A DNA stretch of 64,000 nt, taken from contig NZ_JAOTIK010000001.1 in assembly GCF_030116705.1 (NCBI RefSeq), positions 4,430,501-4,494,500 of the forward strand. Direction: 5' to 3'. The position numbers were made by a program, and so were the translations under genes. The stretch is from Streptomyces sp. ML-6 (GTDB taxonomy: Bacteria; Actinomycetota; Actinomycetes; Streptomycetales; Streptomycetaceae). This document shows positions 6,815 to 55,409 of the stretch, in pieces. The notes under the pieces were generated by a model, which was given only the letters and a program-made list of their open reading frames with translations, was not told where the DNA came from and made no database searches. Position 1 is the first letter of the stretch, and every line of letters starts with the position of its first letter.

Positions 6815-8427
6815 CGGGTGTTGCCTTCTTCCGGGTGCGGGGAATTGGCCCGAACAGCCTGACGGAAGCTGCTGAAGCGGGCTGCCTGTTCCTTGGGGTC
6901 GGAGGTGCGGGGACGGGGGGTACTCGCCCCGTCCGGGTTGGCGTGGGCGTGGGCGCGGGCCTCGGCGGCGGCGAGGGTGTGGCCGCGGCGGCGCTTGGGC
7001 AGCCCGCTCTCGCCGAACCGGGGGAGGCTGCGGGTGGTCTCGGAGCCGTCCGCGGGGGTGTTCGTGGAGGTGTCCGCAGAGGCGTTCGCGGAGGTGTGCG
7101 CGGAAGCCTCCTCGGATACGGAGGTGGGCGCCGGGGTGCTCGCGGAGGTGTGCGCGGAGGTGTGCGCGGAAGCGTCCTCGGACACGGGGGCGGGTACGGC
7201 GGCGGGCGCGGCGGCCTGGTCCGGGACCCGGGTCGCGGCCGGGGTCGTGGTCGCGGCCGGGGTCGTGGTGGGTACGGGTTCGGCGGCTGCCGGGACCCGC
7301 GCGGGGGCGCGGGTGAGGAGCTCCTGGGGCAGCATCATCAGGGCGCCGGTGCCGCCGCGCGCGGACGGGCGGAACGACACGGTCAGCCCGTGCTTGCGGG
7401 CCAGCCGGCCGACGACGGCGAGGCCGAGCCGGGTGCCGGACAGCCCCGTCAGGTCCTGGACGTCGGCGGACACCGCGCGTTCGGCGCGGCGCAGCTGCAC
7501 CTCGCTCATGACCAGGCCGCTGTCCTCGACGGTCAGCACGATGCCGGCCGGGACCTCCTCGACGTACACGTGGACCTCCGCCGTGGGCGGCGAGAAGTTG
7601 GCGGCGTTGTCGAGGAGCTCGGCGAGCGCGTGCATGACGCCCTCCGCCGCGTGACCGGCGACGGCGACGTCGCTGGTCGAGTGGAGCCGCACCCGCTGGT
7701 AGCCGCTGATCCGGCCCATCGCGCCGCGCAGGATCGACTCCATCACGATCGGCTTCGCCCAGCGCCGCCCGGAGCGGGCGCCGGTCAGCACGGCGATGGA
7801 GTCGGCGAGCCGGCCCGCCTGGGCGGTGCGGTGGTCCAGGTGGAGCAGGTCGCCCAGGACGTCCTCGGCCGCGTGCCGGTGCTCCATCTCGCGCAGGTCG
7901 GCGAGCATGCTGGTGGCCAGGGCCTGCATCCGGCCGGCGGCGTTGGCGCAGGCGGCGAGGGCGGCGGAGCGCTCGGTCTCGCTGCGGGTGGCGCGGGCGG
8001 TGAGCCGCTCGATCTCGGCGGTGAACCGCTGGGTGTCGGCGGCGGCCTGGGCCGCGGCGCGGGCGGTCTCGGCCTCCGCGGCCGACCTGATCCGGGCGGT
8101 CTCGGCCGCGGCGGCGGACTTGATCCGGGCCGTCTCGGCGGTGAACCGCTGCCCCTCGGCCGCGGAGGCGGACACGAGGCGGCTGATCTCGCCGGTGAAC
8201 CGCTGGTTCTCCGAGGCGATACGGGCCCGCAGGCGGTTCGCGGTGCTGCGGGCGTGGACGGCGGTGGCCACGGCGGCGGACAGCACCACGGCGGCGGCGC
8301 CCGCACCCCAGGCCAGCGTGGTCCGCACCGAGTCGGGGGCGGCGACGACCGCCCACAGGCACAGGGCGCCGGTGACGGCCAGCGATATCAGCAGGGCCGC
8401 TGCGGTCGGCCGGGATGAGGGGCTCAA
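6811..8427 (-). CDS. cvnA: Conservon sensor histidine kinase-like protein CvnA
   Basis: A 538-aa membrane sensor and first gene of the conservon. Two transmembrane helices lie at about residues 8-30 and 37-58, followed by a long Ala/Glu/Arg coiled coil (about 65-170) in which the motif RFTAE recurs. Then comes an HATPase_c domain (N-box HALAELLDNAANFSPP, later SGTRLGLAVV). No canonical H-box histidine is obvious, as in other CvnA proteins. The C-terminal ~170 residues are low complexity with repeated AHTSA/SADTS-like units. The start is TTG with an AAGGA Shine-Dalgarno 7-8 nt upstream; this 10-bp SD segment is tandemly duplicated (8428-8450). Confidence 0.88.
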   Translation of the reverse strand: MSPSSRPTAAALLISLAVTGALCLWAVVAAPDSVRTTLAWGAGAAAVVLSAAVATAVHARSTANRLRARIASENQRFTGEISRLVSASAAEGQRFTAETARIKSAAAAETARIRSAAEAETARAAAQAAADTQRFTAEIERLTARATRSETERSAALAACANAAGRMQALATSMLADLREMEHRHAAEDVLGDLLHLDHRTAQAGRLADSIAVLTGARSGRRWAKPIVMESILRGAMGRISGYQRVRLHSTSDVAVAGHAAEGVMHALAELLDNAANFSPPTAEVHVYVEEVPAGIVLTVEDSGLVMSEVQLRRAERAVSADVQDLTGLSGTRLGLAVVGRLARKHGLTVSFRPSARGGTGALMMLPQELLTRAPARVPAAAEPVPTTTPAATTTPAATRVPDQAAAPAAVPAPVSEDASAHTSAHTSASTPAPTSVSEEASAHTSANASADTSTNTPADGSETTRSLPRFGESGLPKRRRGHTLAAAEARAHAHANPDGASTPRPRTSDPKEQAARFSSFRQAVRANSPHPEEGNTR

Positions 8428-45612: not shown

Positions 45613-46932
45613 TCAGCCGACGGACCGGAGCCGTTCGAGGAGTTCGCTGACGTCGGCCGTGTGTGCGTATCGCGACAGTTCCGGTTCGAGGTCGCGCACC
45701 ATCGTCATGCACCTGGGCGCGTTGATCCGACCGGCCAGGTCGAGGGAACGGGTGGCGGTCGCTGCGGCGATTTCCGGTTCGCCGTCCCGGAGGTAGGTCT
45801 CGGCCTGGTAGGTCAGGAACACGGATTTGGTTTTGGAACGGGTGGCGGCGAGCAGAGCGATGCCTTCGTCCATCAACTGGTGGGCCTGGTGCCGCTGGCC
45901 GAGATCCGCGAGACAACGGCCGCCGTCTGCTGCGAGGTCCGCCGTGGACATCCACGAACACCAGGCGGGGGCCGGATCGTACGACGGAGTATCCAGAGCT
46001 TTCTCCGCGGCAGTGAGGGCCCGACGGCACAGGCCGCCCTCATCGAGGGCGGCAAGAGCGCGGCCGTGTCGCAGGTGGAGGAGCGACCGCGCGGTGGGGT
46101 GCTGGGCGCGGGGGATGGCGTGTTCGAGGATGTCGGCTGCGGCGCGGGCGTCCTTGAGCCACAGCAGTTGGTACGCGAGGTCGGAGAGGATGCCGGCGCC
46201 GAGGTCGCGCTGGTGGGCGGTGTGGGCGTTGTGGAGGGCGGCGTGCCAGAAGCGTCCGGCGGAGGCGTGGCGGCGTTCGTCGAAGTGCTGCCAGGCGATG
46301 GCTTGGGAGAGGGAGGCGGCCAGGGCGTGCAGCCTCTGGCCGGCGGCGGGGGTGTAGCGGGATTCGCCGATGAATTCGGTGACGGTGGTGAGGTGTGCGT
46401 CGAGCAGATGGCGGGTGCGGTGTCTGCGTTCGGTGGCGAGGCTGATCAGCTCTGCCCCGGTGGTCTCGAGCCAGTCGAGCATCTCGGCGTCGACTTCGCC
46501 GGGTGGGGCGATCCGTGCGAACCGGCCGGGCTCGGTGACGGCCCACTGATGGGCGAGGAGGGCCAGTGAGCCGCTGGTGTAGGCGATGAACGACCGGCGG
46601 TCCAGGGAGGTCATCAAGGCATCTCGAAGTGAGGGGACGGCGCTGAGCGGGCCCAGCGGCAGCGGTCTGTCCTGGCCCGGGAGCCAGTGGGGCCAGCCGA
46701 GATGGGCGACGGCCGTGTAGTCGATGCCGAGGACCTCGGCGATGAGCGGCTGGGACTCGTCTTCGTCGGGGTCGGCGCGGCCGGTCTCCCACTTGGAGAC
46801 CCGTGACCCCCGGGTACCCGAGCGCAGTCCACGACGCGCTGCGGCCTGCCGGATACGGCGGGCCAGCTCCTCCTGCGACCACCCGCGCTCGGTCCTGGCG
46901 TGCGCGAGGGGGTGGCGGATTTCGTCGTTCAC
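45613..46932 (-). CDS. XRE-family regulator with TPR-like C-terminal region, divergent from peptide cluster
   Basis: A 439-aa regulator. The HTH lies at residues about 8-70 (HARTERGWSQEELARRIRQAA ... SRVSKWETGRADPD). The rest is helical with TPR-like repeats (LHALAASLSQAIAWQHF, AGRFWHAALHNAHTAHQRDLGAGILSDLAYQLLW, HLRHGRALAALDEGG). GTG start. It is transcribed away from the MSYDH pentapeptide operon across a 282-bp shared region, so it is the likely cluster-situated regulator. The TPR domain may bind a peptide signal, as in other XRE-TPR proteins; this is inference. Confidence 0.82.
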   Translation of the reverse strand: MNDEIRHPLAHARTERGWSQEELARRIRQAAARRGLRSGTRGSRVSKWETGRADPDEDESQPLIAEVLGIDYTAVAHLGWPHWLPGQDRPLPLGPLSAVPSLRDALMTSLDRRSFIAYTSGSLALLAHQWAVTEPGRFARIAPPGEVDAEMLDWLETTGAELISLATERRHRTRHLLDAHLTTVTEFIGESRYTPAAGQRLHALAASLSQAIAWQHFDERRHASAGRFWHAALHNAHTAHQRDLGAGILSDLAYQLLWLKDARAAADILEHAIPRAQHPTARSLLHLRHGRALAALDEGGLCRRALTAAEKALDTPSYDPAPAWCSWMSTADLAADGGRCLADLGQRHQAHQLMDEGIALLAATRSKTKSVFLTYQAETYLRDGEPEIAAATATRSLDLAGRINAPRCMTMVRDLEPELSRYAHTADVSELLERLRSVG

Positions 46933-47214
46933 CCGCCCATTGCATCACCCACTCCCCGGCCGAGGGAGCTGTTCGAGGAGACCGGGGATAGGGCGGGGAT
47001 AGAGATTTCCTCTGTGCACCGCGGCCGGGGGCCGCTGTACTCGTCGTGTTCTGCCCGGCACCCCGTGTGACCGGGTGGAGTGCGGCAACGACTGTCCCCT
47101 CTGGCCTTGTCCGCCCGCCGGACTGTGTCTGTCCCGTCCATCGGGCGAGGGCCGGCCGGAGGCCTTCGCCGTCGCCGTACGCCCGCCGTCACCGACGCAC
47201 AGGGAGGGGCTGCC
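46933..47214 (+). promoter_or_regulatory. Regulatory region of the pentapeptide cluster
   Basis: Between the divergent regulator and the minigene. It contains two GGGGATAG direct repeats 11 bp apart (46984-46991 and 46995-47002), suited to an HTH dimer, and a 6-bp hairpin GCGGCC/GGCCGC (47021-47035). The rest could be a long leader of the operon. A GTG at 47075 opens a Cys-rich frame (VECGNDCPLWPCPPAG...) that runs across the minigene. It has no Shine-Dalgarno and is probably chance, although a small protein cannot be excluded. Confidence 0.45.
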
Positions 47215-47232
47215 ATGTCGTACGACCACTGA
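47215..47232 (+). CDS. Minigene for pentapeptide MSYDH (biarylitide-like RiPP precursor)
   Basis: Five codons plus stop (ATG TCG TAC GAC CAC TGA), preceded at 5-6 nt by a very strong Shine-Dalgarno (AGGGAGGGG, 47201-47209). It fits the MxYxH pattern of biarylitide precursors, which are the smallest known peptide genes and are always followed by a P450 that joins Tyr3 to residue 5 (His). Here a P450 gene begins 70 bp downstream. Ser2 and Asp4 are the variable positions. The downstream hydroxylase, amidinotransferase and ligase genes suggest further processing. No leader peptide exists. The call rests on pattern, ribosome-binding site and neighbours. Confidence 0.8.
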   Translation: MSYDH

Positions 47233-47246
47233 GCCCGAGAAGTCCG

Positions 47247-47281
47247 GGGCGGGCCCGCTCGATGAGGCGGGCCCGCCCTTT
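47247..47281 (+). terminator. Hairpin between minigene and P450 (attenuator-like)
   Basis: A 12-bp perfect stem GGGCGGGCCCGC/GCGGGCCCGCCC (47247-47258 and 47267-47278) with an 8-nt loop, followed by TTT. It could stop most transcripts after the minigene so that precursor mRNA exceeds enzyme mRNA, or stabilise the short message. It lies between two genes of one apparent operon, so read-through must occur. Confidence 0.65.
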
Positions 47282-47301
47282 CCACCCCGGAAGGACCCGT
47301 G

Positions 47302-48471
47302 ATGCAGTCTGTGACCGACCGCTACGACCCTTTGGACGCGGAGATCCTGCACGACCCCTACCCGGTACTGGCCGAACTGCGTGAGCGTGAGCCGGTGTTC
47401 TGGCACGTGGGCATGGATTCGTGGGTGCTGACCCGGTACGCGGACAGCGTGCGGGTGCTGCGCGACCATGAGACGTTCGCCCGTGACCCGCGGCGTACCG
47501 GGGGCGGGGTGCCGGAGCCGTCCTTGAGCGTGCAGACGCTCGATCCTCCCCAGCAGAACGCGGTGCGCTCCCTGTTCATGACCGCGCTGCGCGCCCAGGA
47601 CCTGACCGGGGTCGAGGACCGTGCCCGCTTCCTGGTGGGCGAGCGGCTCGACCGGCTGGCCGGCGGTGGCCCGTTCGACGTGATGGCCGAGATCGCGGTG
47701 CCGCTGTCCGTGGCGGTTGTCACGGATCTGCTGGGCGTCGAACCCCCGTCGTACGGGGAGTTCGCCGCGATGTCGGACGCGATCATGCGGAGCATGGACG
47801 GCGGCCTCAACCCTGCGCTCGTCGAGCCGGGCCGAGTTGCCCGCCAGCGGCTGAGCGACCTGGTTGACTCATGGTTCGAAGCCTCGGCCCGCCCCGGCCT
47901 CTTGGCCCGGGTACGGCAGGCCACGGCGCCCGACTCCGACGTGTCGACCCGGCTGTACGTGAAGAACACGGCGCGGGTGATGTTCCAGGGTGGCTACAGC
48001 ACGATGGCGGCTGCCATCGGCAACGCCGTCCACACCCTGCTCACTCACCTGGGAACCCTTGACCGGATGCGGGACGGGGCGCTGCTGGCCACGGGTGTGG
48101 ATGAGCTGGTGCGCTTCGACGGGCCGGTGCAGGGCACCACGCGCACGGCGGTGCGCTCCTGCCGGATCGGCGGCGTCGACATCGCGCCGGAGCAGAAGGT
48201 TGTTCCGCTGTTCGCGGCGGCCAACCATGATCCGTCCGCCTTCACGCGGGCGGACGAGCTGATGCTGGAGCGCACCCCGAACCGCCACCTCGGCTACGGA
48301 TGGGGACCGCACTCCTGCATCGGGACGACCGTCGCCCAAGCCGGGCTGCGCGCCCTGGTCGCGGCCCTGAGCAACCACCCGGCCCGACTGGCCGCCGCAG
48401 GCGACGGCGTACGGCGCCGGACGGCGACCATGCGGGCCTTCGACACGCTGCCCGCTGCTCTCCTCCTCTGA
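47302..48471 (+). CDS. Cytochrome P450, predicted Tyr-His cross-linking enzyme of the pentapeptide
   Basis: A 389-aa P450. K-helix ExxR is ELVR (268-271); heme loop is GYGWGPHSCIG with Cys339. The I-helix reads QGGYST (229-234), lacking the usual acidic residue of (A/G)GxE/DT. A modified I-helix is often seen in P450s that couple aryl groups rather than hydroxylate. Overall length and adjacency to MSYDH match biarylitide P450s, which make a C-N or C-C bond between Tyr3 and His5. ATG at 47302 has GGAAGGA 6 nt upstream; a GTG one codon earlier is too close to it. Confidence 0.85.
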   Translation: MQSVTDRYDPLDAEILHDPYPVLAELREREPVFWHVGMDSWVLTRYADSVRVLRDHETFARDPRRTGGGVPEPSLSVQTLDPPQQNAVRSLFMTALRAQDLTGVEDRARFLVGERLDRLAGGGPFDVMAEIAVPLSVAVVTDLLGVEPPSYGEFAAMSDAIMRSMDGGLNPALVEPGRVARQRLSDLVDSWFEASARPGLLARVRQATAPDSDVSTRLYVKNTARVMFQGGYSTMAAAIGNAVHTLLTHLGTLDRMRDGALLATGVDELVRFDGPVQGTTRTAVRSCRIGGVDIAPEQKVVPLFAAANHDPSAFTRADELMLERTPNRHLGYGWGPHSCIGTTVAQAGLRALVAALSNHPARLAAAGDGVRRRTATMRAFDTLPAALLL

Positions 48472-48536
48472 GCACGCCCCCACACCGCGACGATCGGCAC
48501 GCGCTGCTCGTCCGCTCATGTCTTCAGGAGTCCGCT

Positions 48537-49943
48537 ATGCGCATCCTCATCGGCAATCACATCGATCCGTCCATCCGCGAACGCGGCGACATGCGGGCCT
48601 GGGCGCAGCGCCTGCTGTGGTTCGCCCGCCCCGGTGACCTGCTCATCCTGTGCTGCGAGCCGGACCCGGCATTCGTCGACTACGCCCTGGCCCACACCGG
48701 CGTGAAGCGCGAGGAGCTGACCGTGCTGGCCGCACCGGTCGGAGCGTGGGGCGAGAGGCTGCTCGATCCCGCCTCCCTGACGGTGCCCGCGTTCGTGGAG
48801 CAGGTGCGGGCCGAGCTCGGTCCGGCCGGGGCCGGCGCGGTGAGCGAGGTGTTCGCGCTGTGGCCGTCGGCCGCCGTGGCGCGGCTCGCCGAGGGTCTGG
48901 GTGTGGCCGACCGCTTCCCGGGCGCGGCCTTCTTCGGGCAAGGCGGCGGGGAGATCGGGAACAACAAGGCGAACTTCCGGGCCCTGGCGGCGGCGGCCGG
49001 GGTGCCGATCCTGCCGGGCCGGGTCTGCCGCAGCCGTGCCGAAGCGACCGAAGCGACCGGCGTGCTGCTGGAACGCTCCGCGTCGGGTGCCGTCGTGGTC
49101 AAACAGGCCCACAACGGCGCCGGGGTCGGCAACCAGCTGCTCGTACGCGACCCGGGGATGGCGGTGGACCACGTCGGGGCCCGGCATCTGCACCATCTGG
49201 TCCCAGGCCCGGACGGCATCGCCGAGTACTGGGCCGAGCGGTGGCCGTGGGCGAGCGGGAACGACCGGTGGCCGGTCGTCGTCGAGGAGTTCGCGCCCGG
49301 CGCCGACGCGGTGTACTCCGAGCACTACGCCGCGGACGAGGGCACGCGGGCCACCGAGACGGGCCGCCTGCTGTATGTCGGGCGGCGCCTGAGCCACCAG
49401 GTCGTGCCGCTGGACGGCGTCACCGAGCCGGTACGGGTGGCGTTGCTGGACGGCGGCACCCGGCTGGCCGAGGCGTACCGGGCGTTCGGCTACCGCGGGC
49501 ACCTGAGCGCGGACGCCCTGGTCCTGCCCGGCGGGTCTGTGGTGTTCACCGAGGTGAACGCGCAGGTCTCCGGGTCGTTGCACATCTACCAGTCGATCGC
49601 CCACGGCATCGTCGACGTCGCCGCTGAACCGGCCCGGCAGGTGGTCGAGTACCACGTCCCGCCCACCTGGGCGGTGCCCTCCTTCTCCTCGTTCCTGGTC
49701 GCGCTCGACGAGCTGGGCCTGGCGTACGACCCGGCCACCCGGACCGGGGTGATCGTGTCGATGCCCGCCATCCCCCTCGCCGCCGGGGAGCCGGTGCAGT
49801 TCGTGTTCTGTCTCGCCTACGACCCCGCCGAAGGCCACACGGCCGCGTTCGACCGGCTCGACGCACGGTTCGCGGCCGTGCCCGCCGGCACCTACGACGC
49901 CAGCCAGCACATCGGCACCGGCGCCGTGTCCTTCTCCTCCTGA
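48537..49943 (+). CDS. PGM1-like pre-ATP-grasp/ATP-grasp peptide ligase
   Basis: A 468-aa ligase. The first ~150 residues form the pre-ATP-grasp domain (RILIGNHIDPSIRERGDMRAWAQRLLWFARPGD...), GQGGGEIGNNKANFRALAAAAGVPILPG starts the ATP-grasp fold, the ATP lysine is in VVVKQAHNGAGVGNQ (near 188), and the Mg ligands are in TEVNAQVSGSLH (near 338-340). The C-terminal extension resembles PGM1. PGM1 of pheganomycin biosynthesis joins a guanidino amino acid to ribosomally made peptides, so this enzyme probably attaches a cap residue to the cross-linked MSYDH-derived peptide. CAGGAG Shine-Dalgarno; 65 bp after the P450. Confidence 0.82.
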   Translation: MRILIGNHIDPSIRERGDMRAWAQRLLWFARPGDLLILCCEPDPAFVDYALAHTGVKREELTVLAAPVGAWGERLLDPASLTVPAFVEQVRAELGPAGAGAVSEVFALWPSAAVARLAEGLGVADRFPGAAFFGQGGGEIGNNKANFRALAAAAGVPILPGRVCRSRAEATEATGVLLERSASGAVVVKQAHNGAGVGNQLLVRDPGMAVDHVGARHLHHLVPGPDGIAEYWAERWPWASGNDRWPVVVEEFAPGADAVYSEHYAADEGTRATETGRLLYVGRRLSHQVVPLDGVTEPVRVALLDGGTRLAEAYRAFGYRGHLSADALVLPGGSVVFTEVNAQVSGSLHIYQSIAHGIVDVAAEPARQVVEYHVPPTWAVPSFSSFLVALDELGLAYDPATRTGVIVSMPAIPLAAGEPVQFVFCLAYDPAEGHTAAFDRLDARFAAVPAGTYDASQHIGTGAVSFSS

Positions 49944-49958
49944 CCGGGAGCCTCGCCC

Positions 49959-50933
49959 ATGACCACCACCTCGCTCACCGCGGCCACAGAGGCTGTCCGG
50001 CTCTCCCCCGTCTTCGACTCCGACCGACTGGCCGCCGAGCTCAAGGCCGTTACCGCCCACACCTGGAACGTGCAGCGCACCCACACCTACGGCGGGCAGG
50101 TCGGCCGGCCTGCCGCGATCGACTGGCGGGTCCTGCCCCTGCGCAGTCTCGGCGGCGATCCGGAACGCACCGGCCCGGGTGGCCCCGGGCCACAGCCATT
50201 CGCACCCACGCACTGGCTCGACCAACTGCCCTACCTCGCACAGATCCTGGACTCGGTACCGGCCCCGCTGAACGCGGTACGGCTGATGGCGCTGGGGCCC
50301 GGAGCCGTCTCGGACCCGCACCGCGACCCCAAGTACCGGCTGGACCGGGGCATCGTGCGCCTGCACATCCCCGTCGTCACCGACCCGGGCGCCGTGCTCG
50401 TCCTGGACGGCATCGAACACTGTTGGCAGCCAGGCACCCTCTGGTACGGCGACTTCTCCCGCGAGCACCTGGTGCGCAACACCAGCCAGGCGGTGACCCG
50501 GGTCCACGCCGTGATCGATGCCCTCCTCACCGCTGATCTCGCAGCCTGGTTCCCGGACGCCTGGCAGCACCTCCTCGCCCACGGCGAGGTCCTGCTCAAC
50601 CGCACCGGCCCGGCCGAGGTTCCCGCCTGGCCCGACGGGCTGCCCTACGAGGCGCTGCTGCCGTCCGGGTTCGCGGACTTTGACTCACCCGCCCCGCTGG
50701 ACGGCTCCCTCATCCCCGCCCGCATCGACCGTGACGCCGACGACGTCCTCGCCCTGACGGTCGCCGGGCGCACCTTCGCACTCGTCCCGGCCGACGGCGC
50801 CGGAGAGTTCCGCTTCTCCGGCTGGAGCGAGCAGCGCACCCTCCAGCCGGACAGCGGCGGTCTGACCCTGCGGATCCGTCGTGGCCACGCGCTTGCCGAC
50901 CGGCACGTGACCGCCGCGTCCCGCGCCTCCTGA
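49959..50933 (+). CDS. Aspartyl/asparaginyl beta-hydroxylase-like Fe(II)/2-oxoglutarate dioxygenase
   Basis: A 324-aa protein. Residues about 60-195 contain the Asp/Asn beta-hydroxylase core: LMALGPGAVSDPHRDPKYRLD with the H-x-D pair (near 121 and 123), RLHIPVVTDPG and the distal His in FSREHLVRNTSQAVTRVHAVID (near 170). These match the iron and 2-oxoglutarate binding residues of the family. The C-terminal ~120 residues are a separate domain of unknown role. It may hydroxylate Asp4 of MSYDH or an amino acid used in the cap. Lies 15 bp after the ligase gene. Confidence 0.78.
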   Translation: MTTTSLTAATEAVRLSPVFDSDRLAAELKAVTAHTWNVQRTHTYGGQVGRPAAIDWRVLPLRSLGGDPERTGPGGPGPQPFAPTHWLDQLPYLAQILDSVPAPLNAVRLMALGPGAVSDPHRDPKYRLDRGIVRLHIPVVTDPGAVLVLDGIEHCWQPGTLWYGDFSREHLVRNTSQAVTRVHAVIDALLTADLAAWFPDAWQHLLAHGEVLLNRTGPAEVPAWPDGLPYEALLPSGFADFDSPAPLDGSLIPARIDRDADDVLALTVAGRTFALVPADGAGEFRFSGWSEQRTLQPDSGGLTLRIRRGHALADRHVTAASRAS

Positions 50934-50964
50934 CCCCGCACACCCCGAGAGAAGAGGAATGCCC

Positions 50965-52116
50965 ATGACCCCCCTGAACAGTCACGACGACTTCACCCCG
51001 CTCAAGGAGGTCATCGTCGGGTCCGCCGCCAACTACGTGGGACACGACCGCGACGTCTCGTTCGAGCTGTTCCACCACGAGAACCTGAAAGGCTTCCGGT
51101 CGGACTGGGCCTATCCGCGCCTGACCCGGACGACGGCCGGCCACCGGGAGAGCTGGGCCATCAAGAAGCGGTACGCCGAGGAACTGCACGAGGACGTGGA
51201 GGCCCTGGCCGCCGTGCTCGCCGGACTCGGGGTCGCCGTGCACCGTCCGCTGCCCCTGCCTTCCGACGCGAAGGTCATCGCGGGCCTGGGCTGGGAGGCC
51301 GCCCCGACCCCGGCCCTGAACATCCGCGACAACACGCTGATCCTCGGAAGCGAGATCATCGAGACGCCGCCCGCGATCCGCTCCCGCTACCTGGAGACCC
51401 GCCTGCTCGCCCCCGTCTTCACCCGCTACTGGGAGGCCGGCGCGCGGTGGACGACGATGCCCCGCCCCACCCTCACCGACAACAGCTTCGACCTGTCCTA
51501 CGCGCGGGACACCACGACCACCCTGGGCGGGCCGACCGAGGCCATCGACGACCCCCGGCCGAGCCCGTACGACGTCGGCGTGGAGATGATGCTGGACGGC
51601 GCGCAGGTGCTGAGGCTGGGCCGGGACCTGGTCGTCAACGTCGCCCAGGAGAACCACGCCCGGGGCGCCGAGTGGCTTCAGAGGCACCTCGGCCACGAGT
51701 ATCGCGTCCACCGGGTGTGGAGGATGGCGGACAACCACATCGACAGCATGATCCTCGCCCTGAAGCCGGGGGTGTTCCTGGCCCGGCACGAGGGCATCCG
51801 GGACCTGATGCCCGAGCCGCTGCGCTCGTGGCGCTACATCGTGCCTCCGGAACCGGATGAGGGCGCGTTCCCGGTCTACGACGACTACGAGGACCTGGTC
51901 CTCACCAGCCCCTACATCGATCTCAACGTGCTCTCCGTCGACGAGCGCACGGTGCTGGTCAACCAGGAGTGCACCGGTCTGGCCAAGCTGCTGGAGGTCG
52001 AGGGTTTCGACGTGGTGCCCGTACGGCACCGGCATCGGCGGTTGTTCGGGGGTGGGTTCCACTGCTTCACTCTGGACACCCATCGCACTGGCGGCTTCGA
52101 GGACTACCTGTCGTGA
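50965..52116 (+). CDS. Amidinotransferase (glycine amidinotransferase-like)
   Basis: A 383-aa member of the amidinotransferase family. The catalytic triad is visible: Asp in NSFDLSYARDTT region, His in DNHIDSMILALKPG (near 258) and Cys367 in GGFHCFTLDTHR. The N-terminus has LKEVIVGSA, a typical start. It transfers an amidino group from arginine to an amine, giving a guanidino compound. A homologue with PGM1 makes the guanidinoacetic acid cap of pheganomycin, supporting a guanidino-capped peptide product. ATG 50965 has AGAGGA 6 nt upstream; the stop overlaps the next GTG. Confidence 0.88.
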   Translation: MTPLNSHDDFTPLKEVIVGSAANYVGHDRDVSFELFHHENLKGFRSDWAYPRLTRTTAGHRESWAIKKRYAEELHEDVEALAAVLAGLGVAVHRPLPLPSDAKVIAGLGWEAAPTPALNIRDNTLILGSEIIETPPAIRSRYLETRLLAPVFTRYWEAGARWTTMPRPTLTDNSFDLSYARDTTTTLGGPTEAIDDPRPSPYDVGVEMMLDGAQVLRLGRDLVVNVAQENHARGAEWLQRHLGHEYRVHRVWRMADNHIDSMILALKPGVFLARHEGIRDLMPEPLRSWRYIVPPEPDEGAFPVYDDYEDLVLTSPYIDLNVLSVDERTVLVNQECTGLAKLLEVEGFDVVPVRHRHRRLFGGGFHCFTLDTHRTGGFEDYLS

Positions 52117-53405
52117 CCCTCCCGGGCGTGCTGTTACTGGACGCGGCCGGCCCCGAGGCAGGTTTCCTCGCCACGGCGGCCGCCGTCCGCGGGCACCAGG
52201 TCCACGCCGCGACCACCGCCGCGGCGTACGCGGGCTACGGGCCGGAGCTGAGGGGTCTTCTGGCCGGGCGGGTCGTCACCGACTTCGCCCGGCCCGGCCG
52301 GGCCCTCGACGAGATCGCCGTGTACGCCCGCCGCCACGGTGTCGGCGCCGTGCTCACCGTCAACGAATACCTGACCAGTCTCGCCGCGCACCTCTGCGCC
52401 GAACTGGGGGTGCCCGGCAACGACCCCGCCGCCTCGCGGGCGGCCCGGGACAAGGCCGTCATGGCCGAGGTGTTCGCAGCGGCCGGGGTGCGCACCCCGT
52501 ACACGGTCCTCGTCCAAGACGGCGCCGGGCTGCGGGCCGCGCTGGCAGACCCACGGGTCGGCTTCCCGTGCGTCATCAAGCCGCTGTCCGCGGCGGGCTC
52601 CGCCGGCGTCACGGTGGTGAGCGGCCCGGGCGGCGCGGTCGAGGCCGCCGACACCGCCCGCGCGGCGGTCGGCATGCACAAAAGCGGTGGCGACCCGCCC
52701 ATCCTGGTCCAGGCATACGCCGCGGGGACGGAGTACAGCATCGAGTCCCTTACACAAGACAGCACCACGACACACCTCGCCGTGACCCGGAAGTGGGTGA
52801 CCGGCGACCCGAAGAGGGTCGAGACGGGGCACAGCCTTCCCGTCCGCCTGCCCCCGGCCGTCGAGGCGGCCGTGTACCGGGAGGTGGAGGCGGCCCTCCG
52901 GGCGTCCGGTATCCGGCATGGTGCCTCGCACACCGAGGTCATCGTCGGCGAGGACGGGCGGTGCACGGTCATTGAGATCGGCGCCCGCCTCGCCGCCGGG
53001 CAGATCGGCGTCCTGATCCAGCACGCCCTGGGCATCGACGTGTGGGCGGCTCTGCTCGACGTCGCCCTCGGCCGCCCGGCCGCGCTCGCCCCCACCGCCC
53101 GCGGGTATGCGACTGTGCGGTTCGTGACCAGCCCGCGCGCCGGACGGCTGACCTCGCTCTCCGGATTCCCGACGACGGGGCCGGGCGTGCCGTTCGCCCG
53201 CCTGCGGGCGGCGATCGGGAGCACCGTCCACGAACCGGGAGCCAACGGCCACCGGCTCGGATCGTTCGTGGTCACCGGCCTGGACGCTGCCGAGGTCGAG
53301 GAGCGGGCCGACGCGCAACTGCGGAGGATCCGCATCGAAGTCGAACCACACCACCACGGCGAACCGGGACCGGCCCCCGACCGCTCGGCCAGGACCGACC
53401 GATGA
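52113..53405 (+). CDS. Second ATP-grasp ligase (carboxylate-amine ligase-like)
   Basis: A 430-aa ATP-grasp enzyme. The N-terminal Rossmann-like part (GVLLLDAAGPEAGFLATAAAVRGHQVHAATT, GVGAVLTVNEYLTSLAAHLCAELGVPGNDPAASRAARDK) leads to the central ATP-grasp fold. There the ATP lysine is in FPCVIKPLSAAGSAGV and the metal ligands are in HTEVIVGEDGRCTVIEIGARLAAGQ. The last 100 residues form the C-terminal domain common to BL00235/L-amino acid ligase-like proteins. It would make an additional amide bond, adding another amino acid to the peptide or building the cap dipeptide. GTG overlaps the amidinotransferase stop. Confidence 0.85.
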   Translation: MTLPGVLLLDAAGPEAGFLATAAAVRGHQVHAATTAAAYAGYGPELRGLLAGRVVTDFARPGRALDEIAVYARRHGVGAVLTVNEYLTSLAAHLCAELGVPGNDPAASRAARDKAVMAEVFAAAGVRTPYTVLVQDGAGLRAALADPRVGFPCVIKPLSAAGSAGVTVVSGPGGAVEAADTARAAVGMHKSGGDPPILVQAYAAGTEYSIESLTQDSTTTHLAVTRKWVTGDPKRVETGHSLPVRLPPAVEAAVYREVEAALRASGIRHGASHTEVIVGEDGRCTVIEIGARLAAGQIGVLIQHALGIDVWAALLDVALGRPAALAPTARGYATVRFVTSPRAGRLTSLSGFPTTGPGVPFARLRAAIGSTVHEPGANGHRLGSFVVTGLDAAEVEERADAQLRRIRIEVEPHHHGEPGPAPDRSARTDR

Positions 53406-54406
53406 GCGGGCCCGTCACACGGGAGGCTCACGAATCCGGGTCCGATGCGGCGATCACAGCGGCCTGCTTCCCCGCCCCTGCCCTTCTCCTGCGCACCAAC
53501 GATCCGGTCGCCCAGCGGACGGTCCGGGCCTTCGCCGGCCAGCAGGCCGAGGCGGCGCGCTTTCTGGCCCGGTCCCTGGCCGCAGCTCTCCGCTCGGCCC
53601 CCGACATGCGGGCCCGGGTCGCGGTATTCATCGCCGCGTTCGAGGCGACGGAGAACTGGCGGTACAGGGCAGCGGCCTCCAGCCCTCACAGCACCGGCCG
53701 ATACAGCCCCATCTGGGCAGACCGGTTCCGGACTCCCATCACTGACGACAACCCCAACCTCTTCCGCATCGGCGACCACACCCGCTTCCGGGATGGCGCA
53801 ACATGGGATCCAGCGACCCGCACCTACCAGGGCGGCACCGACACCCCGGCCAGCCGGACGATGCGACGGTTCGAGGCGCTCGCAGCCGCCAGATTTCCCC
53901 CGTCGCCACGCGTTGACGTCGTGTGCAACAGCGTCTCCCTGCCCGACGGCTGCAGCGCGGACGGGACGCGGCTCCTGCGCGGCGCCGCCGCCCACCAGGC
54001 CGCAGCCGAAATGACCGCCCGGATCTCGGTGCGAGGCGGGGACACGTCCCGCATCACCACCAGCGGACATCTGATCTATACCGCCAGCGCACCAGAAGCA
54101 GAACGCCACGCGGTCTTCCACCACGCCATGACCCTGCTCGCCCGCGACCACACCACCCCGGCCGACGTGCTGACCGCATGGCTTCAGGCGGCCTACCTCC
54201 TCTACCAGGCCCCCCGCAGAAAGCGAGGGGCCGACGCGACGATCCGCACCTTCCTCGTCGCAGCGGGCACCCTCCTGCTGTCCAGACCGCCCGTGCTACC
54301 GCACGACATCGACCTGCGCGCCTACGCCCAGACACACGATCTGTTCACCACCGAACTACGGGCCGCCCAGGGCATCGACACAACCTCCGTCGGATGGTGG
54401 ATCTGA
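53402..54406 (+). CDS. Unknown protein of the pentapeptide cluster
   Basis: A 334-aa protein whose ATG overlaps the ligase stop (ATGA), so it is part of the operon. No family is recognised. It is helix-rich (AQRTVRAFAGQQAEAARFLARSLAAAL, ADVLTAWLQAAYLLYQAPRRKRG) with a His-rich stretch ERHAVFHHAMTLLARDH and a terminal TTSVGWWI. It has no membrane segment. It could be a new tailoring enzyme, a peptidase removing Met-Ser, or a chaperone. Last gene before the convergent phosphotransferase. Confidence 0.7.
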   Translation: MSGPVTREAHESGSDAAITAACFPAPALLLRTNDPVAQRTVRAFAGQQAEAARFLARSLAAALRSAPDMRARVAVFIAAFEATENWRYRAAASSPHSTGRYSPIWADRFRTPITDDNPNLFRIGDHTRFRDGATWDPATRTYQGGTDTPASRTMRRFEALAAARFPPSPRVDVVCNSVSLPDGCSADGTRLLRGAAAHQAAAEMTARISVRGGDTSRITTSGHLIYTASAPEAERHAVFHHAMTLLARDHTTPADVLTAWLQAAYLLYQAPRRKRGADATIRTFLVAAGTLLLSRPPVLPHDIDLRAYAQTHDLFTTELRAAQGIDTTSVGWWI

Positions 54407-54422
54407 TCTGCCCACCGGCCAG

Positions 54423-55409
54423 TCAGGCCAGACCGGCAAGCACTCCTGCCAGCGTGTCGTAACTCTCGCGGACCGCGTCCGCCCTGCCCAGCCGGTGCCG
54501 TTCAAGCCGGATCGCGCCCAGGTGCCGGGCCTCGTAGATTCTCGCGCGCCACACAGCGGCGGACGAGCGGTCCAAGGCACCATAGGACTCCCAGAACGCG
54601 GTCCGCTCGTCCTCCTTGGCCGTCGCCATGCGGATGGTCCAGTCGGCCGCCGGGTCACCGAACCACGCACGGTCGAAGTCCAGCACCCCGGTGATCACCG
54701 GCTTGGGGGCCTTCGGGTCCAACAGGGCGTTGACGGTCCATAGATCTCCGGTCAGCAGCCTCGGCCCGGTGACCTCGTCGAGGGCGGCCCGGCCGTGCGT
54801 GGCCACCGCCGCAACTTTTCGTACGTCGCCCGCGTCCAGACCGGCACCGTCCAGGTCCGCAGCGATCTCCTCCAGCGAAGCGATCACCGCCTCGCTCCAC
54901 GTCCCGTGCCCCGGACCGCCGACGGGCCCGAAGTGCGGACCGCGTACATCGTGCACGGAACGGGCGATGGCACCCATCTGCCCGAAGAACGCCGACCACT
55001 GCGCACGCGGATACGCCCCCAACCGCTCCGGGGCCGGGACGCCGTCCAGGCAGGTCTGGATCATCCAGTCCCGGCCGATCACCTCGTGCGACCAGTCCGC
55101 GGCGAGCACCCGCGGCATCAGCGGCGCGATCACCGCCAGCCAGGGCTGGGCCGCGTACTCGTTCCGCATCAGGTGGCGCTCGCTGCGGAACTGGCGGCTC
55201 TCCTCCGGTGCTACCCGCAGGATCACCGGTTCCGCCCGCCCGGCCAGGCTCACACGGTAGACGTTGTTGTACATCCCCGTGCCCAGCTCGATCGCGGAGG
55301 CAGGCACAGCCGCAGTGCCGAAGGCACGGCGGCAGATCTCCGCAATCTCCTGGGCGGTCAGTGACTGCTGGAACGCATCCGAGGCGCGCTCAACCGGCTG
55401 AAAATCCAC
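54423..55409 (-). CDS. Aminoglycoside phosphotransferase-family protein
   Basis: A 328-aa kinase-fold protein (APH/choline kinase-like). It has a nucleotide-binding loop IELGTGMYNNVYRV, the ATP lysine replaced in VILRVAP, the catalytic loop LLTGDLWTVNALLD (usual HGD replaced by TGD) and the metal Asp in LDFDRAWFGDP. It faces the peptide operon tail to tail. It may phosphorylate the peptide product as self-resistance or be unrelated; distance is only 17 bp. The catalytic base Asp is kept although the His before it is Thr. Confidence 0.8.
   Translation of the reverse strand: MDFQPVERASDAFQQSLTAQEIAEICRRAFGTAAVPASAIELGTGMYNNVYRVSLAGRAEPVILRVAPEESRQFRSERHLMRNEYAAQPWLAVIAPLMPRVLAADWSHEVIGRDWMIQTCLDGVPAPERLGAYPRAQWSAFFGQMGAIARSVHDVRGPHFGPVGGPGHGTWSEAVIASLEEIAADLDGAGLDAGDVRKVAAVATHGRAALDEVTGPRLLTGDLWTVNALLDPKAPKPVITGVLDFDRAWFGDPAADWTIRMATAKEDERTAFWESYGALDRSSAAVWRARIYEARHLGAIRLERHRLGRADAVRESYDTLAGVLAGLA

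Follow-up and report, generated by a model that had tools for sequence, protein, structure and literature searches.

We analysed a window of 64,000 nucleotides from Streptomyces sp. ML-6 (contig NZ_JAOTIK010000001.1, positions 4,430,501 to 4,494,500), within which an 18-bp gene for the pentapeptide MSYDH precedes genes for a cytochrome P450, two ATP-grasp ligases and further enzymes, an arrangement reminiscent of the biarylitide clusters. The features of this locus, in window coordinates, are as follows.

47201..47209, + strand: Shine-Dalgarno (SD) sequence AGGGAGGGG of the MSYDH minigene (from the sequence)
47215..47232, + strand: bytA-type precursor gene ATGTCGTACGACCACTGA encoding MSYDH, 18 bp (from the sequence and pattern searches)
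47247..47278, + strand: GC-rich hairpin between the minigene and the P450 gene, with a perfect 12-bp stem (47247-47258 / 47267-47278) and an 8-nt loop, followed by TTT
47302..48471, + strand: cytochrome P450 of the biarylitide clade, I-helix FQGGYST (PDB matches, tree)
48537..49943, + strand: PGM1-like ATP-grasp peptide ligase (PF18604 and PF18105 above cut-off; PDB 3wvq, PGM1, E 4.8e-73)
49959..50933, + strand: aspartyl/asparaginyl beta-hydroxylase-like Fe/2-oxoglutarate enzyme (PF05118, E 2e-13; invariant putative ligands)
50959..52116, + strand: amidinotransferase, StrB/AGAT family (PDB 1bwd, StrB, E 1.4e-49; conserved motifs)
52113..53405, + strand: L-amino-acid-ligase-type (LAL) ATP-grasp enzyme, LAL_C2 (PF13535, PF18603; PDB L-amino acid ligase 30vh, E 1.4e-19)
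53402..54406, + strand: gene 6, AvrB-like Fido-fold protein, optional tailoring gene (predicted fold)
54423..55409, - strand: APH-family phosphotransferase closing the cluster (PF01636, E 3e-16)
45613..46932, - strand: NsdA-family helix-turn-helix/tetratricopeptide-repeat regulator, divergent from the minigene (NCBIfam NF053720, E 5e-91)

A preliminary description of this DNA had reported an 18-bp MSYDH gene with a strong SD sequence, and we confirm it at 47215-47232 behind AGGGAGGGG. The order of its six same-strand genes was borne out, and Pfam and PDB matches agree with the P450, PGM1-like ligase, hydroxylase-like enzyme, amidinotransferase and ATP-grasp ligase that it placed after the minigene. 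Stop-start overlaps, ascribed there to the later genes, occur only at the amidinotransferase/LAL and LAL/gene 6 junctions, and the conserved APH gene and the 12-bp hairpin had been missed. The last gene, listed as unknown, can now be given a predicted fold. Its 334-residue product has no Pfam or NCBIfam match, and the predicted model has an AvrB-like Fido fold. The Fic motif HPFx[D/E]GN[G/K]R is absent and the conserved stretch reads YQAPRxKRGSDA (consensus of 34 sequences). Identity to AvrB, a rhamnosyltransferase of the Fido superfamily, is 12%, and gene 6, unlike AvrB, belongs to an actinomycete peptide gene cluster.

The minigene and the hairpin behind it

The MSYDH minigene, among the smallest genes known, lies ~70 bp before the P450 gene. 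Its product is a pentapeptide whose third and fifth residues are aromatic, and pentapeptides of the biarylitide kind are proven precursors in other clusters (PMC12951456). The degenerate pattern ATGNNNTAYGAYCAYTGA (MxYDH-TGA) matched the whole 9.13-Mb genome once on the forward strand and nowhere on the reverse strand, and the reversed pattern, used as a control, matched neither strand. It is therefore very unlikely that chance placed such a match, together with an SD sequence, ~70 bp ahead of a P450 gene.

Scanning genome contigs with the PGM1 protein yielded 19 named loci, and in 19/19 of them a minigene of the form [M/V][S/F]YDH (MSYDH, MFYDH, or VFYDH with a GTG start) stands directly upstream of the P450 gene, although the script permitted any residue at positions 2 and 4. 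The minigene is thus not lost from homologous clusters that keep the P450 and ligases. No minigene was found in L059 (genome G308) and L060 (G123), which hold only fragments of P450 and PGM1 genes side by side. L059 looks like a remnant, and L060 adjoins a contig end and may merely be cut.

For wider comparison we compiled 32 loci with Asp at position 4 of the minigene (Asp-4 loci), comprising this window, the 19 named loci, 10 from further genomes and two plasmid records. They are not a random sample, having been collected by PGM1, P450 or hydroxylase similarity, most of them by PGM1. Position 2 is Ser in 22, Phe in four, Arg in three, Thr in two and Gly in one; the search pattern fixed Y-D-H, hence the count is informative for position 2 alone. 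The start is GTG in 1/32 loci and the stops are TGA (27), TAA (3) and TAG (2). All 32 minigenes have a purine-rich, SD-like stretch before them, the script having retained only matches so preceded, and there is exactly one pattern match per locus. The variable position 2 beside a constant Y-D-H is what would be expected if Met and one free residue formed the leader and Tyr-Asp-His the core. Synonymous variation is small (Tyr is TAT once; Ser is TCG, TCC or AGC; GAC and CAC are invariant), so that conservation of the minigene rests mainly on Y-D-H being kept amid diverged surroundings.

The 60 nt after the minigene fold more stably than shuffled sequence (mean z -2.99, n=24 loci, -4.53 to -0.45), unlike two sets of 60-nt control stretches, one taken before PGM1 (mean z 0.32, 23 loci) and one from the region upstream of the minigene (mean z -0.39, 24 loci). 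The hairpin is weak (z > -1) in 2/24 loci, L033 (-0.82) and L045 (-0.45), and the arms of distant loci differ in sequence. In L052 the minigene follows PGM1 and the hairpin still lies directly after the minigene. Visual inspection and folding energies computed without shuffles place hairpins after many minigenes other than Asp-4 as well. This element may act as an attenuator or terminator-like structure; the findings agree with a partial terminator, which would let precursor transcript outnumber that of the enzymes. In the case of myxarylin, the structure predicted for the spacer between precursor and P450 is already placed next to a known terminator in a supplementary legend (PMC8708641).

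Enzymes that accompany Asp-4 minigenes

In profile searches of the 32 Asp-4 loci it is the second ligase, not PGM1, that accompanies every minigene: LAL is present in 32, PGM1 in 30, the amidinotransferase in 30 (two weak) and the hydroxylase in 25. Five of the 32 LAL matches are weak (25 to 73 bits), the lowest being L156 with 25 bits plus Pfam LAL_C2 at cut-off. LAL is thus an Asp-4 partner at least as tight as PGM1. PGM1 as an obligatory partner was rejected, since MSYDH and a related P450 occur in L155 and L156 with no PGM1 or amidinotransferase match in 18 kb. In 31 other loci with related P450s the same search found LAL, PGM1 and amidinotransferase in none and the hydroxylase in 11; these loci span ~6 to 7 kb on each side, so that a LAL gene farther off would escape. 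Of the comparison loci, 20 as well as L119 and L121 came from P450 searches and nine from the hydroxylase search; 29 have a minigene, and none was found in L168 and L172.

Within the main clade, P450, PGM1, amidinotransferase and LAL occur together in 27/27 loci, from hosts ranging from Streptomyces to Kineosporia, Saccharothrix, Actinokineospora and Catelliglobosispora. The amidinotransferase, assigned by sequence to the StrB/AGAT family and thus a candidate for making a guanidino acid, retains the motifs DNHIDS in 27/27 and GGGFHC in 26/27 of these loci. The pairing of PGM1 with an amidinotransferase is not restricted to such clusters. It recurs in 7/12 PGM1 loci lacking a biarylitide P450 (the fragmentary L059 and L060 left out), among them L058, where DpgA and DpgB lie alongside in a pheganomycin-type setting (compare PMC8939145), and ketomemicin clusters also combine an ATP-grasp peptide ligase with an amidinotransferase (PMC11943689). 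A near full-length PGM1 homologue of at least 47% identity was found in 11 of 392 Streptomyces genomes (a subset drawn from a larger group, own genome included) and a fragment only in two more. The gene set is also found on plasmids, for instance the 119-kb conjugative NZ_CP108495.1 and the 289-kb NZ_CP013744.1.

The hydroxylase has four residues, H121, D123, H170 and R181, that are invariant in 26 sequences and are putative metal and cosubstrate residues. Searching 250 genomes of another family with this protein gave 26 matches, of which the 17 strongest loci were examined. Nine of them combine a hydroxylase 39-44% identical to ours with a biarylitide-type P450 and a minigene for MRYLH, MRYIH or MRYRH, with no Asp-4; the other eight are a full Asp-4 cluster (L102), a locus with an unrelated P450 (L118) and six with no P450 match. 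Two of 22 further comparison loci found through the P450 also carry a hydroxylase, L157 (MRYAY) and L170 (MRYLH). The idea that Asp-4 is the hydroxylase target is weakened by the nine relatives without Asp-4, and a target common to both kinds of peptide (Tyr or residue 5) is the simpler assumption. The preliminary description had the hydroxylase probably tailor the peptide; its Asp/Asn-hydroxylase-like family holds, and its target need not be Asp. In L113, one biarylitide-type P450 is followed by two tandem MRYIH minigenes (5321 and 5390, +), with a hydroxylase homologue close by.

Outside the main clade several variant loci were observed. L053 (14519, -) and L054 (14531, -) have a heptapeptide minigene, MRYDHCL, with a strong SD sequence and hairpin, a related P450 and a PGM1 of ~40% identity; judged by sequence they are an extended, Cys-containing relative of the Asp-4 clusters. 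L053 additionally encodes an arginine-deiminase-family protein, an ATP-grasp protein, a major facilitator superfamily (MFS) transporter, a pyridoxal-phosphate enzyme and a hexapeptide transferase. In L155 (9292, +) MSYDH comes after the P450, with a carbamoyltransferase, a flavin-dependent (FAD) oxidoreductase-like enzyme, a Na/H exchanger, an LAL-type ligase and an MFS transporter nearby, a gene set that may represent an alternative decoration scheme for the Tyr-Asp-His core. A prolyl aminopeptidase (TIGR01249 above cut-off) adjoins the Asp-4 minigene clusters of L156 (7682-8641, -) and L052 (7926-8960, +) and is a candidate leader peptidase.

At the borders of the cluster, the NsdA-family protein is a probable cluster-linked regulator in Streptomyces relatives. 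It lies beside the minigene at 76-92% identity in 11 loci (L032, L033, L036, L037, L039-L043, L063, L064), is 55-60% identical in L050 and ~25% in L034 and L035, and has no tblastn match in L038 (a contig edge), L044-L049 and L051. The APH gene, a candidate for self-resistance or a tailoring kinase, has a profile match in 25/27 main-clade loci and partial tblastn matches only in the other two (L037, and L120, cut by the fetched end); the profile search found none in five loci of a second group.

The P450 and its predicted bond

The top PDB matches of the P450 are 9m47, whose aligned stretch is RufO-like, and the RufO structures (262.6-262.9 bits), of which 8SPP, 9DUJ and 9EBY are described in PMC12186263. 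They are followed by 22yx (260.6), P450Blt (8U2M, 235) and two chains named 'putative cytochrome P450' (217 and 216), the next match scoring 129. In a tree of 40 P450s, 31 minigene-labelled rows together with L119, RufO and 22yx separate from six other P450s (100/97); the tree was midpoint-rooted, and long branches were flagged among the outgroup rows. The P450 beside the precursor gene thus clusters with biarylitide P450s (P450Blt/RufO and other minigene-linked enzymes) and not with P450s acting on other substrates than peptides. The 18 Y-D-H rows form one subgroup (97/88), with L119 and an MRYAY row as nearest sisters, and RufO falls in another branch. In L173-L176, MRHAH and MRHVH minigenes, which have His at positions 3 and 5, accompany P450s with profile matches of 366-382 bits.

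This P450 shares its family and, presumably, a pentapeptide substrate with RufO and P450Blt. It differs in the I-helix, which reads FQGGYST here and FHAGFEV in RufO. The positions of P450Blt His234 and Glu238, mapped through RufO His235 and Glu239, are Gln and Ser. FQGGYST is found in 25/25 main-clade P450s examined (including L102 and L120), none of which has His at the His234 position; in L052 to L054 the I-helix is FNASYGT or FNASYST, the latter in L053 and L054. His234 directs C-N bonding in P450Blt (PMC10929621; PMC12186263), and the I-helix His/Glu pair that holds and directs His-5 there is lacking here. This does not exclude biarylitide membership, because the pair is described for C-N P450s and its His is also absent from other minigene-linked P450s (L074, L079 with MRYYH, L114 and L116). 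The earlier claim that the P450 cross-links Tyr3 and His5 remains likely; the bond type may differ, and the missing His/Glu leads us to predict a C-C bond.

In the sister locus L119 the minigene, upstream of a P450 gene at 6962-8167 (-) with I-helix FQSGYSS, encodes MRYND. Residue 5 is not aromatic, which may mean different P450 chemistry in this single locus and makes an altered reaction possible for our P450 too. L119 also encodes an MFS transporter and a peptide deformylase, which could serve maturation or be a copy for resistance.

A proposed pathway and its relatives

Directly observed are the sequence, its conservation, the P450 clade, and the protein families and folds, from which all chemistry below is deduced. 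We consider it probable that the locus specifies a biarylitide-type pathway for a ribosomally synthesized and post-translationally modified peptide with ligase tailoring, the product being a cross-linked Tyr-Asp-His that is trimmed, capped with a guanidino acid and otherwise decorated; the guanidino capping and the hydroxylation we infer from the gene set. There is good reason to expect that MSYDH is translated from the minigene and that the hairpin holds precursor output above enzyme output. The P450 would likely cross-link Tyr3 to His5. With the I-helix residue responsible for C-N bonding in P450Blt absent, a C-C bond is somewhat favoured over a C-N bond. A host peptidase would then probably cut off Met-Ser to leave cyclic Tyr-Asp-His. 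On balance we expect the amidinotransferase to convert an amino acid into a guanidino acid, which PGM1 would join to the freed N-terminus; since the cluster has no phenylglycine genes, that amino acid probably comes from primary metabolism. The hydroxylase may oxidise the shared Tyr/His part, an assignment we make with some hesitation. More tentatively, a last decoration could come from the Fido protein in this cluster, or from a methyltransferase in its sister clusters, and the APH kinase could phosphorylate the product for self-protection or tailoring. It is doubtful that the LAL ligase attaches a second residue or an amide, perhaps at the Asp-4 side chain.

A bolder form of this proposal, which we regard as unlikely, takes Asp-4 as a chemical handle: LAL would activate its side chain (or the C-terminus) in the cross-linked Tyr-Asp-His and attach a second building block, PGM1 would cap the N-terminus with the guanidino acid, and the AvrB-like Fido enzyme would add a sugar or nucleotide. 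If so, an 18-bp gene would give rise to a doubly ligated, branched tripeptide, and a Fido-fold enzyme would act as a tailoring enzyme in peptide natural product biosynthesis, of which our literature search found no published case.

Several observations weigh against the capped and decorated product. No product is known. No protease or transporter was recognised among the genes at 45613-55409 (Pfam/NCBIfam), nor were phenylglycine (DpgA-type) genes, the rest of the genome being unsearched. L155 and L156 lack PGM1 and amidinotransferase matches, and the hydroxylase is missing in 7/32 Asp-4 loci. Most Asp-4 loci were chosen by PGM1 similarity and, the Asp-4 P450s in the tree being one clade, the LAL association may be a single evolutionary event. 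With a sister P450 beside MRYND in L119, Tyr-His coupling is not assured for the clade. Some control stretches also fold well, before PGM1 in L032 (z -2.40) and upstream of the minigene in L034 (-3.04), L049 (-2.83) and L052 (-3.35). Finally, the sav cluster of Saccharothrix variisporea, which encodes MRYVH, an amidinotransferase and an Asp/Asn hydroxylase, gave only undecorated YVH with a C-C cross-link as the detected product, so that the extra enzymes may do nothing detectable (PMC13417212).

That result also lends some weight to a distinctly less likely alternative, in which peptide maturation ends at the cross-linked Tyr-Asp-His and a separate small molecule, encoded in the same operon, is made by the ligases, amidinotransferase and hydroxylase. 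LAL ligases, moreover, usually use free amino acids. The joint presence of P450, PGM1, amidinotransferase and LAL throughout the main clade speaks against such a division, with the proviso that PGM1 was the query for most loci, as does the attachment of nonproteinogenic acids to ribosomal peptides by Pgm1 in pheganomycin (PMC13417212). It is quite improbable that the P450 alters Tyr alone, as RufO does, and that the hydrolysed peptide supplies an unusual amino acid to the ligases. RufO does outscore P450Blt, Gln and Ser replace the I-helix His/Glu, and the MRYND of L119 would suit such a route; yet no nitric oxide synthase is among the genes identified, RufO sits in another branch of the tree, and a Tyr-only route would not need Asp-4 and His-5, which are kept in all collected loci (the 32-locus pattern required both, and the 19-locus search left position 4 free). 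That the minigene and hairpin form a translation-coupled attenuator of the P450 operon rather than a precursor gene is hardly credible: a strong SD sequence with a terminator-like hairpin directly behind it, ahead of the first enzyme gene, would fit, but the minigene follows PGM1 in L052 and the P450 in L155 and L156, so that it need not open the operon, its sequence varies along with the P450 clade, and such pentapeptides are the proven precursors cited above.

Published accounts call the biological role of biarylitides unknown (PMC13417212, PMC8708641), and potential effects of related peptides on plants are mentioned (PMC13417212). The conserved and partly plasmid-borne set of two ligases, amidinotransferase and kinase gene suggests that the ring is a mere intermediate in this branch, which might explain the inactivity of plain biarylitides in tests. 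The cluster supplies candidate targets for the hydroxylase and ligases as well as candidate P450 residues.

Resorcinomycin is made by a PGM1-type pathway like that of pheganomycin. Among systems close to this one, Padva et al. (July 2026) reported 47 biarylitide clusters that pair Pgm1 ligases with Asp-4 precursors, and these share with ours a five-residue Asp-4 precursor, a biarylitide P450 and a Pgm1 homologue (PMC13417212). Most likely our cluster is of the same kind, and perhaps this or a sister strain is included. On the 47 clusters the main text names the Pgm1 link alone, and Table S1 and the figures may list more; the words amino acid ligase, Fido, AvrB, kinase, phosphotransferase, hairpin and terminator have no match in that main text (PMC13417212). 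Our analysis adds to this account the LAL link, the P450 I-helix, the hydroxylase relatives in clusters without Asp-4, MRYDHCL and MRYND; several details of the present cluster we did not find described there, and parts of its gene set look unusual. The literature, subscription papers lying outside the search, yielded no described product of any Asp-4 cluster, MSYDH or MxYDH included; the earlier statement that the gene set has no described product therefore stands, and the kind of cluster is already in print with the 47 clusters and sav. The latter resembles ours in joining a biarylitide minigene and P450 to an amidinotransferase and a hydroxylase, and differs in having Val at position 4 and two named tailoring enzymes with no ligase (PMC13417212). 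The pheganomycin pathway shares the PGM1-family ligase and amidinotransferase and places a guanidino acid on a ribosomal peptide (PMC8939145), whereas here no DpgA-type genes are recognised and a five-residue precursor lies beside a biarylitide P450. The merging of biarylitide and pheganomycin logics put forward in the preliminary description is upheld, in that a biarylitide-type minigene and P450 stand together with a PGM1-type ligase and amidinotransferase; a hybrid of biarylitide and Pgm1 logic has already been published (PMC13417212).

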